From positions 1-43,197 of the IMG/VR virus record IMGVR_UViG_3300042922_000227: a stretch of DNA of 43,197 nt, one strand, 5' to 3'. Shown piece after piece: positions 31,184 through 39,072 of this stretch (position 1 is its first letter; each line of letters opens with the position of its first letter). This DNA comes from a virus. Both the position numbers and the translations under genes were made by a program. The notes under the pieces were generated by a model, which saw only the letters and a list, made by a program, of their open reading frames with translations, ran no database searches and was not told the origin of the DNA.

Positions 31184-31290
31184 AGCGCACCCCCGCAAGC
31201 GATGCCGACAGCGGCGACGACGAGCGTGACACCGACCAGGGTGAGGAAGGCGCCGATGATGCGGTTCTCGAACCGCTCCTGCCGGGTCAC
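31180..31290 (-). CDS. 36-aa single-helix membrane protein
   Basis: GTG 31290 overlaps the stop of the HTH gene upstream (GTGA) and its stop overlaps the next GTG (GTGA). The peptide MTRQERFENRIIGAFLTLVG is followed by VTLVVAAVGIACGGAL, one transmembrane helix. It forms a pair with the next membrane gene. Confidence 0.6.
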   Translation of the reverse strand: MTRQERFENRIIGAFLTLVGVTLVVAAVGIACGGAL

Positions 31291-31493
31291 GAGACGGGCC
31301 TCTCCGACGGGAGGGACGCGAGCCAACGCTCACCCTCAGCCTTCGTGATGAGCGGCTTCATCTTCGCCGGGTACGACGCGACGAGGTCGCCGGCGCTGAT
31401 CGCTTCGCGGACGGTCGTGACCGAGAGGTCAACGGCCTTCGCGAAGTTGGGGATGGAGTACGCGAGCTTGTCGAGTACGGGGGTGTCGCTCAT
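31287..31493 (-). CDS. excisionase-like HTH protein
   Basis: 68 aa. The sequence LAYSIPNFAKAVDLSVTTVREAISAG, DLVASYPAKMKPLITKAEGERWL matches the MerR/HTH_17 excisionase-type domain: a helix-turn-helix, a turn and a beta hairpin that reads the DNA, then a final helix. As second gene of the early operon it is a good candidate for Xis, directing integrase to excise the prophage, or for a transcription regulator. Confidence 0.75.
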   Translation of the reverse strand: MSDTPVLDKLAYSIPNFAKAVDLSVTTVREAISAGDLVASYPAKMKPLITKAEGERWLASLPSERPVS

Positions 31494-31702
31494 GCTGCGG
31501 CTCCCATCAGTTCGTGGTGGGGCTGGCCGAGGGCGATCGCAATGCGGTCGAAGTGGTCGAGGTCGAAGGGGGCGTTGCCGTCGAGCTCGTCGGTGAGCAG
31601 GGTTACGGTGATGCCTGTGGCGGCTGCGAGGTCAGCGTCGGTGCGGTTCATCGACCGCAGCGACTGCCTGATCCTCCTGCCGGGGATGGTGGTGTGCGTC
31701 AT
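31490..31702 (-). CDS. Cro-like HTH regulator, first gene of early operon
   Basis: 70 aa from ATG 31702; the in-frame Mets at 31723 and upstream lie in the promoter. The XRE/Cro fold is IRQSLRSMNRTDADLAAATG, ITVTLLTDELDGNAPFDLDH, FDRIAIALG. The gene diverges from the repressor, and its ATG lies 7 bases after a -10 box, so its mRNA would be leaderless. It should oppose the repressor in the lysis-lysogeny decision. Confidence 0.8.
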   Translation of the reverse strand: MTHTTIPGRRIRQSLRSMNRTDADLAAATGITVTLLTDELDGNAPFDLDHFDRIAIALGQPHHELMGAAA

Positions 31703-31709
31703 AAGTGCA

Positions 31710-31738
31710 ACCATACGCGTCACTAGTGACGTGTGCAA
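31710..31738 (-). promoter_or_regulatory. early leftward promoter with operator in its spacer
   Basis: On the minus strand: -35 TTGCAC (31733-31738), a 17-bp spacer, -10 TATGGT (31710-31715). The predicted start is at or next to the A of the Cro-like ATG (31702), giving a leaderless transcript. Confidence 0.75.
31718..31731. promoter_or_regulatory. palindromic operator
   Basis: CGTCACTAGTGACG is a perfect 14-bp palindrome inside the promoter spacer. A copy at 35549-35562 matches it at 13 of 15 positions when the next T is included. It is the best candidate for the repressor/Cro binding site. Confidence 0.75.
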
Positions 31739-31783
31739 GCACGCACGGACGTGTTTCGTATCCTTTTGGCCGCATTACGCTGC

Positions 31784-31789
31784 TACTGT
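31784..31789 (+). promoter_or_regulatory. -10 box of leaderless repressor promoter
   Basis: TACTGT (TAnnnT) ends six bases before GTG 31796, so transcription would begin at the start codon. The -35 is poor (TCCTTT near 31761). The overlapping GTGACG (31788-31793) equals an operator half-site. Confidence 0.5.
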
Positions 31790-31795
31790 GACGGA

Positions 31796-31801
31796 GTGCA
31801 A
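31796..31801 (+). promoter_or_regulatory. start codon of repressor without ribosome-binding site
   Basis: No Shine-Dalgarno sequence precedes GTG 31796; the only purines upstream are ACGGA. This decides for leaderless translation over the upstream in-frame start at 31733, which lies beyond the promoter. Confidence 0.45.
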
Positions 31802-32191
31802 GCAGACGACGAGAAGCAGATCAGCGCCCTGAACCGTGCCATGGCAGCGGTCCTCCGCGGAGCCATCGCATCCGAGGGGATCAGCCAGAAGCAGCTGGCA
31901 GCGAAGACGGGGTACTCCCTCGCGACGATCCAACGCAACCTCGCCGGCGAACGGAAGTTCAACATCGACCAGGTCGAGAAAATCGCCGCCGCCCTCAACA
32001 TGTCCGCACCGGACCTGATGAGCCGCGCAGTCGAGTGGCGCTCAACACGAATGTCAGAGGCTGCCCCCGACAATGTGACCCAGCTGCAGCCCCGGAAGCG
32101 CGTCGAAGACATGACCGTGGAAGAGATCGAGCAGCTGAAGCATGCGGCCACCGTCGACCCTGAGATGGATGAGCCGGAACAGTTCGACTAA
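31796..32191 (+). CDS. immunity repressor, XRE/HTH_3 family
   Basis: 131 aa. Residues about 12-75 form the HTH_3 fold: LRGAIASEGISQKQLAAKTG, YSLATIQRNLAGERKFNIDQ, VEKIAAALNMSAPDLM. The C-terminal half is acidic and polar (LQPRKRVEDMTVEEIEQLKH) with no protease or RecA-cleavable domain. It diverges from the Cro-like gene and is followed by an ImmA-like gene. It should hold the early leftward promoter shut in the lysogen. The start is chosen because the -10 box lies just before GTG 31796. Confidence 0.85.
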   Translation: MQADDEKQISALNRAMAAVLRGAIASEGISQKQLAAKTGYSLATIQRNLAGERKFNIDQVEKIAAALNMSAPDLMSRAVEWRSTRMSEAAPDNVTQLQPRKRVEDMTVEEIEQLKHAATVDPEMDEPEQFD

Positions 32192-32210: not shown

Positions 32211-32573
32211 TTGTACGACCCGTACCAACACGCGGAAGAGCTCAGCATTCAGGTGCTGCACCGTCCGCTCCGCACAGCACACGAGATGTGGCTGCCGGAC
32301 CACAACATCATCGTCGTGAAGTCCGGCCTGCGAAGGATCCACGACCGGTCAGCGCTCGCCCACGGCATCGCACACGCGGCGCTCGGGCATCCGGACGACC
32401 GGCCGAAGCATGAGGTGCAGGCGGACCGGTATGCGGCTGAGCGCCTGATCGATGAGGACCAGGCGCTCGCGCTGTGCCGGTGGACGCAGGACCCGGCAAG
32501 GATCGCCGCGGAGCTGGGTGTGTCAGGGCGACTCTGGCGGGTGTGGGCGAACACACACCGGCAGGTCGCCTAG
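32211..32573 (+). CDS. ImmA/IrrE-like protein with degenerate HExxH
   Basis: 120 aa from TTG 32211 (GGGGG upstream); ATG 32169 would overlap the repressor end. It has the phage ImmA layout: YDPYQHAEELSIQVLHRPLR, HEMWLPDHNIIVVKSGLRRI, then LAHGIAHAALGH, KHEVQADRYAAERLI. The HExxH zinc motif reads H51-G-I-A-H55: both His are kept and the catalytic Glu is Gly. ImmA-type peptidases cleave or unlock phage repressors. Loss of the Glu suggests a non-catalytic binding role. The gene is co-oriented with the repressor. Confidence 0.85.
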   Translation: MYDPYQHAEELSIQVLHRPLRTAHEMWLPDHNIIVVKSGLRRIHDRSALAHGIAHAALGHPDDRPKHEVQADRYAAERLIDEDQALALCRWTQDPARIAAELGVSGRLWRVWANTHRQVA

Positions 32574-32755
32574 TTGTTTGCTCCCTGCTGGGTCAGGCGC
32601 GCCATCCACTTGGCCTTCTGCTTCTCGTCCAGCCCGACTCCTGCCACGAGCGGGTCGCGGCCGGACATGACGAGCTGCAACGCCGCCTCGTAGGTCATCA
32701 CGTGGCCGTTCGCTTCGATGGTCTGCGTGCTGTCGTTGAAGTTCGCGAGGGTCAT
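32570..32755 (-). CDS. hypothetical 61-aa protein after integrase
   Basis: ATG 32755 overlaps the integrase stop by 4 bp. The sequence (MTLANFNDSTQTIEANGHVM, YEAALQLVMSGRDPLVAGVG, LDEKQKAKWMARL) is small and helical. Its stop overlaps that of the convergent ImmA-like gene: both use the CTAG at 32570-32573. Function unknown. Confidence 0.6.
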   Translation of the reverse strand: MTLANFNDSTQTIEANGHVMTYEAALQLVMSGRDPLVAGVGLDEKQKAKWMARLTQQGANN

Positions 32756-34068
32756 GCTGCTTCTCCTTCGTCCGTGGTTCCAAGGGTACGGTCCGACCGT
32801 GTCAACGGCAGGTACGCGGCCCGGAGCGCGTCGCGCAGAGTCTCCCGGTTCTGCCGACCGCGGTAGTGACGCGACACCACGAGGCTCGAGTGCCCGACGA
32901 TGTCCATGATCGTGACCTCGTCGACCCCTGCCGCGTAGAGAAGATCCACGGTCGTGTTGCGAGCGGTGCGGAGCTGCACATCACTGACGCCTGCACGGGT
33001 GAGCACACCGTGCCAGTACGCGTTGTCGGTGGACGGGTCGATCGGTGACCCGTCAAGCACGAGGCCGTCTTTCGTCCGCTTCGGGTCCGAGGTCCACAGC
33101 AGACCGTGCGGGTTCAGTTCCGACGCAGCCGTCTCCACCCGCCGTTCGATGATGGACCGGAGCGGGTCAACGAGAGGGATGATCCGCCATCCCGCTTCGG
33201 ATTTTGGACGGGACAACCACAGCCCGCCCTCGAGGTGCCGGTACTCCCGGTCCTCGGGCGCGTTCAAGTACCGTTCCGGGCACTTTGCTCCCTGCTTCTC
33301 ACCACAGTGCGGTTCCCACGGCTTCGCCGGGTTGCAGCCGTGCGACCACGAGAACCGCTTCAACTGCCACGACAGGTCGAGTTCATCCGTGACGCGGTCC
33401 AGTTCGAGGCCGATGACCTCACCCTGGCGGGCGCCGGCGAGGAGCGCGGTCGCGACGCGGGAACCTAGACGTTCATGCTGCACCGTCTCGAGGACCCGGA
33501 TGCCATCGTCAACGTCAAGGCGGGGGAGTTGCACCTTCTTCTTCTTCGGTTGGTCAACGAGGGTGGCGACGTTCCGGCTGACGCGTCCGTCGCGCATGGC
33601 GTCGCGGAGTGCGAGGGACAGCACCCGGTGCGCCTGCTGCGCGGAAGCACCACCGAGTCCCTTCTCACGGATTGCCTGCTCCACCTTCCGTACATGCTGC
33701 GGGGTCAGCTTGTCGAGGCGGGTCTTCCCGATCGCCGGCACGATGTACTGCTCAATGCTGGTCCGGTACGACGCGATCGTCTTCGGGGCGATCTTCTTCG
33801 AGTGGATGTGCGCGAACCAGTACCGGATCCACGACGTGAGCGTCTGCGACGCGGTCGGCATGTCCCCGATGTCGGCGAGGTCTTTCTGCAGCCGCTTCAA
33901 CTCCGCGACGACGACGGCTTTCGACTTGTTGCGGACGAACTTCCGGCGCCGCTTCCCCGTCGTGGACGGCAGCTCGAGGACCGCCTGCCAGTACTTCAAT
34001 GGCTTGGTCGGGTCCTTCGGGACACGGAACAGGGCGCCCTCACCAGCACCACGCTGAATCGCACCCAT
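32752..34068 (-). CDS. int: tyrosine integrase
   Basis: 438 aa. Residues 5-60 form an arm-binding domain, 70-165 the SAM-like core-binding domain, 175-420 the catalytic domain. Active site: R214 (AGARQGE), K289 (RPKSEAGWR), R370, H393 (GHSS) and Y402 (SRHYRGR). The HxxR box reads L-R367-T-A-R370-N-T, so the usual His is Arg. A Cys/His cluster (HGCNPAKPWEPHCGEKQGAK, then C) at 243-263 is found in related actinophage integrases and may bind zinc. It recombines attP with the tRNA-Lys gene. ATG overlaps the upstream stop by one base. Confidence 0.93.
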   Translation of the reverse strand: MGAIQRGAGEGALFRVPKDPTKPLKYWQAVLELPSTTGKRRRKFVRNKSKAVVVAELKRLQKDLADIGDMPTASQTLTSWIRYWFAHIHSKKIAPKTIASYRTSIEQYIVPAIGKTRLDKLTPQHVRKVEQAIREKGLGGASAQQAHRVLSLALRDAMRDGRVSRNVATLVDQPKKKKVQLPRLDVDDGIRVLETVQHERLGSRVATALLAGARQGEVIGLELDRVTDELDLSWQLKRFSWSHGCNPAKPWEPHCGEKQGAKCPERYLNAPEDREYRHLEGGLWLSRPKSEAGWRIIPLVDPLRSIIERRVETAASELNPHGLLWTSDPKRTKDGLVLDGSPIDPSTDNAYWHGVLTRAGVSDVQLRTARNTTVDLLYAAGVDEVTIMDIVGHSSLVVSRHYRGRQNRETLRDALRAAYLPLTRSDRTLGTTDEGEAA

Positions 34069-35519: not shown

Positions 35520-35548
35520 ACGCTACACGTCCGAAAGGCAGTCCGCAA
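35520..35548 (-). promoter_or_regulatory. possible leftward promoter beside attP
   Basis: On the minus strand: -35 TTGCGG (35543-35548), 17-bp spacer, -10 TAGCGT (35520-35525). It abuts the second operator and would drive the 35320-to-integrase genes. Confidence 0.4.
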
Positions 35549-35562
35549 CGTCAGAAGTGACG
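35549..35562. promoter_or_regulatory. second operator copy
   Basis: CGTCAGAAGTGACG, with flanks AA...TT that extend the dyad to 18 bp, 7 bp from the tRNA half at attP. It matches the 31718-31731 operator closely. Confidence 0.65.
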
Positions 35563-35569
35563 TTCACCA

Positions 35570-35616
35570 ACTGACTCTTAATCAGTGGGTTCTCGGTTCG
35601 AGTCCGAGGGGGTGCA
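35570..35616 (+). other. attP: 3' half of a tRNA-Lys(CTT) gene
   Basis: The sequence folds as the 3' part of a tRNA: anticodon stem ACTGA/TCAGT around loop CTCTTAA (anticodon CTT, 35577-35579), variable loop GGGTT, T-arm CTCGG-TTCGAGT-CCGAG (35592-35608), acceptor strand GGGGTGC and discriminator A35616, with no encoded CCA. No D-arm or 5' acceptor strand (GCACCCC) is present, so this is not a working tRNA gene. It is the identity region that lets the integrase target a host tRNA-Lys gene and rebuild it. Confidence 0.9.
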
Positions 35617-35620
35617 CGGC

Positions 35621-35739: not shown

Positions 35740-36153
35740 TCACGCAGCTCGCGACTGCCACCTGCGGTTCGAGTTCTCGCTGCGCGTGACGACTTCCAGG
35801 TGCGTCGGGTTCACGCATGACGTGTTCCGGCACAGGTGGTCGAGGGTCATGTCCTCGGACACTGGGCCTCGGCTGGCCTCGTACGAGAACCGATGCGCCA
35901 GGTACTGCTCGCCGCGGTACATGAGCCGTCCGTACCCCTTTGGGTCGCGCGCCCCGCCCCATGCCCAGCAGCCGGTCTCAGTGACGTCTATGCGGGCTGC
36001 GATGACCTCGGCGGGTGCCAGGTTCCGCAGTTGCTGCCGTTGCCCGCTCAGCGCCTTCTGACGGGCTGCCTCGCGCTTGTAGTGCGGCTTGCACCACCCG
36101 CGTGCGTAGTGCTTCCGCGAGCATCCGTCGGCGGTACAGGTTCGATCGCTCAT
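35740..36153 (-). CDS. HNH endonuclease beside attP
   Basis: 137 aa from ATG 36153 with AAGGAGA upstream. The N-terminus has a Cys/His motif (CTADGCSRKHYARGWCKPHY) common to phage HNH proteins. The HNH_3 core is TGCWAWGGARDPKGYGRLMY, HRFSYEASRGPVSEDMTLDH, LCRNTSCVNPTHLEVV. It reads opposite to the rightward small-gene operon that begins at 36239. Its position between attP and that operon fits a mobile insertion. Confidence 0.88.
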   Translation of the reverse strand: MSDRTCTADGCSRKHYARGWCKPHYKREAARQKALSGQRQQLRNLAPAEVIAARIDVTETGCWAWGGARDPKGYGRLMYRGEQYLAHRFSYEASRGPVSEDMTLDHLCRNTSCVNPTHLEVVTRSENSNRRWQSRAA

Positions 36154-36170
36154 TCTTGGTCTCCTTTGTG

Positions 36171-36214
36171 TTGCGTTTCCGCTACACAAAAGAGTACGCT
36201 GAAGGTAGCGAAAC
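36171..36214 (+). promoter_or_regulatory. promoter and inverted repeat of rightward operon
   Basis: -35 TTGCGT (36171-36176), 18-bp spacer, -10 TACGCT (36195-36200). Overlapping it are arms GTTTC-C-GCTAC (36175-36185) and GTAGCGAAAC (36205-36214), possibly a binding site for the HTH protein encoded next. Confidence 0.5.
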
Positions 36215-36238
36215 AGCCACACATAGGAGGCCCGTACG

Positions 36239-36454
36239 ATGACAACCGTGAGTCCGAAGCTCAGCAGCCCACCCACGCCCACCATGCGGCGCCGGCTCGT
36301 CGATGCTGGGGAAGCGGCCCGGAAGGCCGACGCCGAACTCCGAGCGAGCGTGATCGACGCAATCGACGCGGGCGTCAGCGTCCGTGAGATCGCGGCCCTC
36401 ACCGACATCAGCACCAACACAGTGCAGCGATGGAAGCGCGAGGCCCAGCGATGA
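36239..36454 (+). CDS. HTH protein, first gene of rightward operon
   Basis: 71 aa, ATG with GGAGG upstream. The C-terminal half is a homeodomain-like helix-turn-helix: IDAIDAGVSVREIAALTDIS, TNTVQRWKREAQR. The N-terminus is Pro/Ser-rich, then a helix EAARKADAELRASV. It is probably a DNA-binding regulator of this small operon, perhaps acting at the inverted repeat upstream. Confidence 0.75.
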   Translation: MTTVSPKLSSPPTPTMRRRLVDAGEAARKADAELRASVIDAIDAGVSVREIAALTDISTNTVQRWKREAQR

Positions 36455-36621
36455 CCGACCCCACTCCGCAGGAGATGCGGGAACTGACCGCGAAGGAGAT
36501 CCGGCAGGAGGACGTGTTCGCGCACATCCTCGAACTGCGGTCGGCGCTTCGGTCTGCGGCCGATCAGATCGAGGCGCGCGACACTTTCGCTGCCCTGCGA
36601 GACAACGGTGGCATCCGATGA
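36451..36621 (+). CDS. hypothetical 56-aa helical protein
   Basis: ATG overlaps the upstream stop by 4 bp. Sequence MTDPTPQEMRELTAKEIRQE, ELRSALRSAADQIEARDTFA. It shares the A-L-R-(S/T)-A-A-D-Q-(I/L)-E-A motif with the gene at 36618-37004. Confidence 0.6.
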   Translation: MTDPTPQEMRELTAKEIRQEDVFAHILELRSALRSAADQIEARDTFAALRDNGGIR

Positions 36622-37004
36622 CCCCGGAGCAGATGCGCGCGCTGGCGCTGGATGCGGCCATGGCTGCGGAGAACGCAGATCGCCGCGCCCAGACCGGTCA
36701 CGCTCTTCGCTACCGGAAGATGGCCGCAGCTCTCCGCACCGCCGCCGATCAGCTTGAAGCGGTGCAGCGTCCGGCAAATCTTACGATCGCCGAGCTCGAT
36801 ACACAGCCGGGGGGAACCGTAGTGGTTGGCCCGGATGGGTTGATCTGGGAACGGAGCGAGGTCGGCTTCTCCGTTGATGGTCGACTGGCGTGGTTCCCGC
36901 TTGAACATGAAGTCGGCTCGAGCTCGCATGAAGTCGGGCACGGGGCACGCGTCATCCTCACCGCCGACACCGCACCCCAGGAGCACCGTAATGGGGTTCG
37001 GTGA
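36618..37004 (+). CDS. hypothetical 128-aa protein
   Basis: ATG overlaps the upstream stop by 4 bp. The N-terminal third is helical (MTPEQMRALALDAAMAAENA, MAAALRTAADQLEAVQRP). The rest looks beta-rich (GGTVVVGPDGLIWERSEVGF, VDGRLAWFPLEHEVG). A fusion of the helical motif of the previous gene to another small domain is plausible. Function unknown. Confidence 0.6.
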   Translation: MTPEQMRALALDAAMAAENADRRAQTGHALRYRKMAAALRTAADQLEAVQRPANLTIAELDTQPGGTVVVGPDGLIWERSEVGFSVDGRLAWFPLEHEVGSSSHEVGHGARVILTADTAPQEHRNGVR

Positions 37005-38220: not shown

Positions 38221-38249
38221 CGCCCCACCCCCGAGTAGGGAGTGGGGCG
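38221..38249 (+). terminator. terminator ending the rightward small-gene operon
   Basis: Arms CGCCCCAC (38221-38228) and GTGGGGCG (38242-38249) around a 13-nt loop, 11 bp after the last stop codon. Confidence 0.65.
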
Positions 38250-38265
38250 CATCCTGAGAGTCACT

Positions 38266-38271
38266 TACGAT
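38266..38271 (+). promoter_or_regulatory. -10 box of the SGNH moron
   Basis: TACGAT lies nine bases before ATG 38281, so the transcript would start at or one or two bases before the codon. No -35 is recognised. Confidence 0.4.
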
Positions 38272-38280
38272 CGGATCATC

Positions 38281-39072
38281 ATGGGGAACTTCATCAGCTG
38301 GTTTGAACGCAGCTACAAGGGCATCATCATCGTGCTCGTCGCGATCATGGCGATCACGCTCGTCGTCCTCGCGATGCAGCAGGTCAACGCGTCGAAGCCA
38401 GCGGCCGGCGCCGAGCCTGGACCCGTCCCGACGTTCACCAGCAAGGCGAGCATCGACCCGCTGCAACTCCCCAAGAACCCGCAGGTGCTCGTGATCGGAG
38501 ACTCGTACGCACAAGGAACCGGAGCGAGCTCCGACGCCGCGCGCTGGACGACCCTGCTTGCCGAGGACCAGGGTTGGGACGCGAAGGTCGACGGAATCGG
38601 CGGTACCGGATTCACCTGGGGTGGAGGCGATGACGGCAAGGACAGCAACCAGTTCTCCACGCGCATCGCTGCGCACGCGAAGGACAAGAACATCGCCCCT
38701 GCCCTCGTCATCCTCGAGGGCGGTCAGAACGATTACCGCGCCGACGCTTCCGATTTGGTTGCCGCCGTGAAGGAGGACGTTCAGGCAGTTCGCGCTGCAT
38801 GGCCGGACGCCGAAGTCATCGTCATCGGCCCTGCCGCACCGGAGCCCCTTGCCACGGAAATCGAACGGATGGACACCAGCGTCGAAGCTGGTGCACGCGC
38901 AGCGGACGCATACTCCATCAACCCACGCGCCACGAAGTGGTTCAACGACGAGAACAGCGCCCAGTTCAACTTCGACGGGGCACACGTCAACGACGGCGGA
39001 CACAAGCTGATCGCCGCGAAGGTCGGCGAAGCGCTCGACCAGTTCACAGTTGGCGCGGACCCCACGTTCTGA
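38281..39072 (+). CDS. membrane-anchored SGNH hydrolase (moron)
   Basis: 263 aa from ATG 38281; an in-frame start at 38242 lies in the terminator and is rejected. A transmembrane anchor is at 14-33 (KGIIIVLVAIMAITLVVLAM), then a Pro/Ala linker, then an SGNH/GDSL hydrolase: block I VIGDSYAQG with Ser75, GGQND (block III-like), and a final FDGAHVNDGGHK with the catalytic D-x-x-H. It should be an ester hydrolase facing the cell exterior, possibly removing acetyl groups from wall or surface polymers. Its own promoter and flanking terminators mark it as an independently expressed gene. Confidence 0.88.
   Translation: MGNFISWFERSYKGIIIVLVAIMAITLVVLAMQQVNASKPAAGAEPGPVPTFTSKASIDPLQLPKNPQVLVIGDSYAQGTGASSDAARWTTLLAEDQGWDAKVDGIGGTGFTWGGGDDGKDSNQFSTRIAAHAKDKNIAPALVILEGGQNDYRADASDLVAAVKEDVQAVRAAWPDAEVIVIGPAAPEPLATEIERMDTSVEAGARAADAYSINPRATKWFNDENSAQFNFDGAHVNDGGHKLIAAKVGEALDQFTVGADPTF

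Follow-up and report, generated by a model that had tools for sequence, protein, structure and literature searches.

The divergent repressor and cro-like genes described here probably form the switch by which a temperate phage chooses between lysis and lysogeny; both mRNAs would be leaderless and the repressor would silence the early promoter P_cro by binding two operators, O1 and O2. About 30 relatives keep the same layout of predicted leaderless starts and an operator inside the early promoter, while the letters of the binding site change. What is new is the predicted second operator copy, present in most of them, exactly 21 bp from the first and straddling the cro start codon. The window, meaning the whole stretch of DNA that was analysed, is a viral record (43,197 bases, 66% GC) with portal, terminase, tape-measure and integrase genes. 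At the DNA level it matches Arthrobacter, Curtobacterium and Microbacterium phages weakly, and we infer a temperate phage of a high-GC Gram-positive bacterium. The right end of the record also holds GDSL lipase/acylhydrolase-like and HNH endonuclease-like genes (38242-39072 and 35740-36777, respectively). The features of the switch and its surroundings, in window positions, are:

31287 to 31493, minus strand: excisionase-like gene, 3' of cro (PHROG 66 excisionase, E 2e-4)
31490 to 31702, minus strand: cro-like gene, 70 aa, ATG at 31702, predicted leaderless (PHROG 4583/2328 transcriptional repressor, E 1.7e-6/9.4e-6)
31697 to 31710, no strand assigned: O2, predicted second operator copy, TTGCACTTATGACG on the minus strand (9/14 to O1; 21-bp direct repeat)
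31710 to 31715, minus strand: P_cro -10, TATGGT, 7 nt (TGCACTT) from the cro ATG (31702-31700)
31718 to 31731, no strand assigned: O1, predicted operator palindrome CGTCACTAGTGACG (P_cro spacer; family dyad profile; recognition-helix covariation)
31733 to 31738, minus strand: P_cro -35, TTGCAC (from sequence; a -35 starting with TTG at a spacer of 16-18 in 22/28 family members)
31784 to 31789, plus strand: P_rep -10, TACTGT, 6 nt (GACGGA) before the repressor GTG at 31796-31798, with no recognisable -35
31788 to 31793, plus strand: GTGACG, possible half operator, overlapping TACTGT by 2 bp (close relatives only)
31796 to 32191, plus strand: repressor gene, 131 aa, GTG start, predicted leaderless (HTH_3, E 1e-8; AlphaFold)
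32211 to 32573, plus strand: ImmA/IrrE-like gene, TTG start with GGGGG just upstream (Peptidase_M78, E 1.4e-7)
32752 to 34068, minus strand: tyrosine integrase (PHROG 1, E 1e-50)

As in a cI/cro-type switch, an HTH repressor gene diverges from a Cro-like gene and the pair adjoins integrase and excisionase genes. The AlphaFold model of the Cro-like protein is a five-helix Cro/C1 fold (pLDDT 83), matching SinR, C proteins and 434 Cro in the PDB with TM scores of about 0.75-0.82, though with Foldseek E-values of only about 0.01. The model of the repressor is confident for the HTH (residues 11-87) and of low confidence for the conserved tail (88-131), its nearest solved folds being ClgR and C proteins. 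The ImmA-like protein reads HGIAH where metallopeptidases have HExxH, a motif kept in 40 of 53 members; in the other 13, including the window and its close relatives, the catalytic Glu is replaced by Gly, and these members apparently fall in several separate groups. With Gly at this position, cleavage of the repressor by the window protein is doubtful, and the retained HGxxH protein may act without cleavage.

The first-pass annotation had read TTGCAC-17-TATGGT on the minus strand with a palindrome in the spacer, which proved correct to the base when the coordinates were rechecked: the 17-bp spacer of P_cro is ACGTCACTAGTGACGCG, and within it lies a perfect 14-bp palindrome with an imperfect extension to 20 bp. 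The exact word CGTCACTAGTGACG occurs once in the window. Perfect 14-bp palindromes are not rare in the whole window (3 observed, 5.2 expected from composition), though the chance of one within a given 17-bp spacer is about 5e-4. Since a lone palindrome is weak evidence, we gathered relatives of the switch, using the neighbouring ImmA-like protein as the query, which gave 51 related loci; the repressor as query found few loci in IMG/VR together with a single phage GenBank record (MT835599), and two scans of bacterial genome contigs gave no relatives. Most of the loci come from metagenomic or prophage records, and they share ancestry. Nearly all carry an HTH repressor frame upstream of the ImmA-like gene and most a small divergent cro-like frame, and in 28 of 30 non-redundant switches the cro and repressor start codons stand 90-95 bp apart.

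Across these 30 non-redundant loci, the sole peak of mean self-complementarity is a dyad centred 9.5 bp before the cro -10. The mean number of pairs at this centre is 4.03 of 7, compared to 1.78±0.21 when the spacer bases are shuffled (the highest mean in 20,000 shuffles being 2.67), and 15 of the 30 loci have at least 5 pairs where 0.4 would be expected; the spacer dyads of L037, L038, L046 and L058 are weak. The predicted operator overlaps the early lytic promoter, the O1 dyad having a constant position within the P_cro spacer in the family, and the idea of an operator within the spacer gains support from its conservation among tens of divergent relatives. The letters of the dyad vary between loci, for instance CGTCACTAGTGACG in the window, CGTCCGAACGGACA in L013, TGCCCGTGTGGGCA in L005, ACTCCGAACGGAGT in L020 and ACCCGGATCCGGGT in L059, and operators are swapped intact among relatives (GTCCGAACGGAC in L013, and those just given for L005 and L059). 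L032 (2518-2612) carries the dyad of the window (CGTCACTAGTGAC) although its repressor is only 29% identical; the window phage and L032 are predicted from this match to be a homoimmune pair. Compared to L013, the DNA of the window is 46-73% identical across cro, operator and HTH, rising sharply to 80-95% from position 32041, which places a mosaic junction within the repressor gene, at the passage from HTH to tail. This jump in identity suggests that the part conferring specificity has been exchanged against a constant tail and ImmA.

The distance between operators correlates with that between repressor recognition helices at r=0.51, compared to r=0.33 for Cro, and the correlation with the repressor tail (r=0.21) falls to a partial value of 0.016 with the HTH controlled. 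Shared ancestry of the loci means that these correlations are support rather than proof, the permutation tests dealing well with the relation of O1 to O2 and less well with that of operator to protein. One could argue that the Cro-like protein, or a host factor, is the main occupant of O1 and that the repressor acts elsewhere, as Cro and repressor both have Cro/C1 folds and both match PHROG 4583, and Cro does covary with the operator to some degree. We think this quite unlikely: the recognition helix of the repressor correlates better, its HTH also has the larger partial correlation with the operator (0.25 vs 0.13 for Cro), and the P_cro spacer is where one would expect lytic genes to be silenced, as in mycobacteriophage BPs (PMC4557955). 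The assignment of the repressor rather than Cro to O1 is thus favoured, on statistical grounds only.

An operator-like copy at 31697-31710 had been missed in the earlier reading of the sequence. This candidate, O2, lies 21 bp from O1 and spans the cro ATG and codon 2 (ACG); in the window it matches O1 at only 9/14 positions, and a match of 9/14 or better is found at 0.3% of random places. We compared the dyad of each locus to all positions of its switch, with the dyads of the other loci as control. At a spacing of 21, the locus's own dyad matches at 7.7 of 14 positions compared to 5.3 for swapped dyads (z=7.85), while neighbouring spacings are negative and every other spacing from 8 to 35 is at or below 1.4. 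Most relatives carry the second copy at this distance. Some of its letters are fixed by the start codon and the -10, and swapped operators already match the O2 site at 5.3-5.8 of 14 positions, so that the likeness to O1 could in principle come from promoter and start-codon constraints common to the family, with O2 being no binding site at all. Such shared constraints cancel when the locus's own O1 is pitted against the O1 of other loci, and the signal is confined to spacing 21, is present in both halves of the site and in the part lying wholly inside codons 2-3 alone (z=3.7), and persists with 12 very dissimilar operators (z=5.3), all of which makes this explanation an unlikely one. We therefore keep O2 as a predicted operator; 21 bp corresponds to two helical turns, which suggests two dimers on one face of the DNA. 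The proposal of a single dyad able to block early transcription is sound for O1 and needs amending for the family, which uses at least two phased sites.

The prediction that both regulators are made from leaderless messages rests on the spacing of promoters to start codons. A TA-like box about 10 bp before the start codon is a signature of leaderless genes, which make up more than 20% of genes in Actinobacteria (PMC3160421). All candidate start codons were counted, which avoids selection bias in the choice of starts. On this count 34 of 40 loci have TAnnnT 6-7 nt before a repressor start and 32 of 40 have it before a cro start, with any other gap found in at most 3 of the 40. In other frames of the window, only 3 of 1041 candidate starts have TAnnnT at a gap of 6-7. 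The cro-side signature is absent in several relatives (e.g. L030, L048, L061, L060), and in L030, L031 and L048 cro apparently has a Shine-Dalgarno leader, meaning that the leaderless state is not universal beside this ImmA family. An apparent Shine-Dalgarno sequence in a few relatives such as L030 and L048 would fit messages that have leaders, with starts further upstream and the TAnnnT boxes incidental or secondary. For the window this is very unlikely, as the 6-7 nt spacing is held on both sides in most of the 40 loci with almost no background elsewhere, and no Shine-Dalgarno sequence was found before either the cro or the repressor start. The suggestion in the first-pass annotation that both regulators are leaderless is accordingly strengthened, as a prediction, by promoter spacing conserved in tens of relatives and a window control near zero: the cro and repressor mRNAs are predicted to start at or next to their start codons.

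On the repressor side of the switch, it was confirmed at the coordinates given above that TACTGT ends 6 nt before the repressor GTG and overlaps GTGACG. The hexamers at the -35 position, for spacers of 16, 17 and 18, are CCTTTT, TCCTTT and ATCCTT, and the -35 score of P_rep (2.36) is at the shuffled level (2.32) compared to 3.75 for P_cro; TTG is found at -35 in 1 of 28 loci for P_rep and 22 of 28 for P_cro. P_rep may thus be intrinsically weak, or assisted by a bound regulator. The reading of GTGACG as a half-site holds up among close relatives, in that L012 and L017 keep it, L011 nearly does and L013 has a counterpart matching its own operator, and fails as a feature of the family. In BPs, the second site, ORep, overlaps the Prep start and resembles the operator in one half only (PMC4557955), and a functional half operator giving negative autoregulation in the same manner is conceivable here, at somewhat less than even chances. 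Own-operator matches elsewhere in the intergenic region are also better than swapped ones (9.0 vs 8.0 of 14). Against this, L014 and L032 lack the half-site, and in the family-wide test of own against swapped half-sites no position near P_rep passes, the only signal being a marginal one some 30 bp before the start of the repressor gene. Lack of conservation across the family leaves autorepression through GTGACG weakly supported, and the same test led us to reject a P_rep half-site as a family rule. Many loci do have extra own-operator-like sites upstream, at variable positions, and a fixed operator near P_rep was also rejected, only the test allowing any position being significant.

We also considered operators elsewhere in the genome. 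Near-matches to O1 with at most 2 mismatches number 9 in the window compared to 8.7 expected, and dispersed operators or stoperators were rejected, as such matches are no commoner than in shuffles. Only one sequence resembling an att site was seen, at 35582-35617, which is 3.4 kb from the repressor; it is a partial, tRNA-like 3' half. This sequence, TCAGTGGGTTCTCGGTTCGAGTCCGAGGGGGTGCAC, resembles the 3' half of a tRNA gene with a CTT anticodon by eye, though ARAGORN calls none; it is a likely attachment site and a putative attP. About 20 bp before it (within 35547-35617) is AACGTCA-GAAG-TGACGTT. The second-best match to O1 in the window, CGTCAGAAGTGACG at 35549, lies beside the att-like sequence. 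G001 and G004 have it in identical form, although the operator of G004 differs (CCTCACTTCTGAGG). As it does not follow the operator of G004, we rejected it as an operator, and it is probably an integration-related repeat.

Taken together, the predicted promoters P_cro (TTGCAC-17-TATGGT) and P_rep (-10 only) would diverge across 93 bp, each giving a transcript that starts at or next to the start codon, so that both regulators would be made from leaderless mRNA. The repressor HTH would bind O1, inside the P_cro spacer, and also the weaker copy O2, 21 bp off, over the cro +1 and start codon; the pair of dimers, probably cooperating on one face of the DNA, would exclude RNA polymerase from P_cro. 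P_rep would be weak or assisted, with Cro and repressor probably modulating it from sites that are less conserved. Relatives would change specificity through joint replacement of HTH and operators, the geometry of the promoters staying fixed. As cro would be leaderless, O2 would run into codon 2, leaving the operator partly written in coding sequence. A transcriptional operator would here constrain a protein sequence because there is no 5' leader.

A broader reading, which we hold to be slightly better than evenly supported, is that these loci represent a widespread and apparently undescribed class of switch. Leaderless transcription would force a cooperative operator pair into the first cro codons, and with O2 straddling the start at exactly 21 bp, immunity specificity would co-determine residue 2 of Cro (M-T with GTCAC-type sites, M-D with GTCCG/TCG-type and M-E with CTCC-type). 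HTH, O1, O2 and the cro start would then be exchanged as a unit, the promoter frame itself being frozen. The switch is compact enough that its operator, 14 bp in the P_cro spacer, can be read from the sequence alone, giving predictions of which prophages cross-protect, and the dyad shared by the window phage and L032 offers a direct test of homoimmunity. For the study of HTH specificity, the family also provides a natural set of about 20 matched repressor-operator pairs that share a promoter frame.

Parts of this arrangement are already known, namely an operator in the PR spacer (BPs), doubly leaderless cI and cro (PY54), and leaderless transcripts with paired operators (C proteins); the open-licence literature searched gave no example of them combined in a layout that is fixed over tens of loci and has an operator at 21 bp on the start codon. 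In phage lambda, three phased operators overlap PR, PRM is weak and cro has a leader. The lambda cI mRNA is leaderless (PMC8138138). The window resembles OR in its divergent repressor and Cro, predicted leaderless repressor message, predicted phased operators overlapping the early promoter and a repressor promoter that may be weak, and differs in that its second operator covers a cro start codon predicted to be leaderless.

The C proteins C.Esp1396I and C.Csp231I have leaderless transcripts, and their promoter carries palindromic operators as a pair, OL and OR (PMC4824078). They are small autoregulators of the Cro/C1 fold, among the nearest to the repressor, yet they lack a divergent Cro and a role in immunity, and their sites lie upstream of their own gene. 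The context here is a phage immunity region rather than a restriction-modification operon under its own autoregulator. In ImmR/ImmA of ICEBs1-type elements, an HTH repressor is likewise followed by an ImmA/IrrE-type M78 gene; the window protein belongs to the same M78 fold family, with HGIAH in place of HExxH. In the Yersinia telomere phage PY54, the cI and cro mRNAs both begin at the AUG by RACE (PMC4488713), a direct precedent for the doubly leaderless switch that we predict from conserved promoter spacing. PY54 is, however, enterobacterial, and the one site bound by its Cro is a 16-bp palindrome beside cI, outside the cro promoter and up to 40 bp away.

The closest arrangement is that of BPs, with its gp33 repressor and the promoters PR and Prep, where a 12-bp palindromic operator (CGACATATGTCG) lies between the -35 and -10 of PR (PMC4557955); in the text searched we found no statement on whether BPs transcripts are leaderless. 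Both phages have divergent repressor and cro-like genes and a palindrome in the same place of the early promoter. BPs has its attP within the repressor gene and five bound regions across the genome, with composite half-sites (PMC4557955), whereas in the window the att-like sequence lies outside the repressor gene, dispersed operators are absent, and a predicted, phased second copy of the operator covers the cro start codon.
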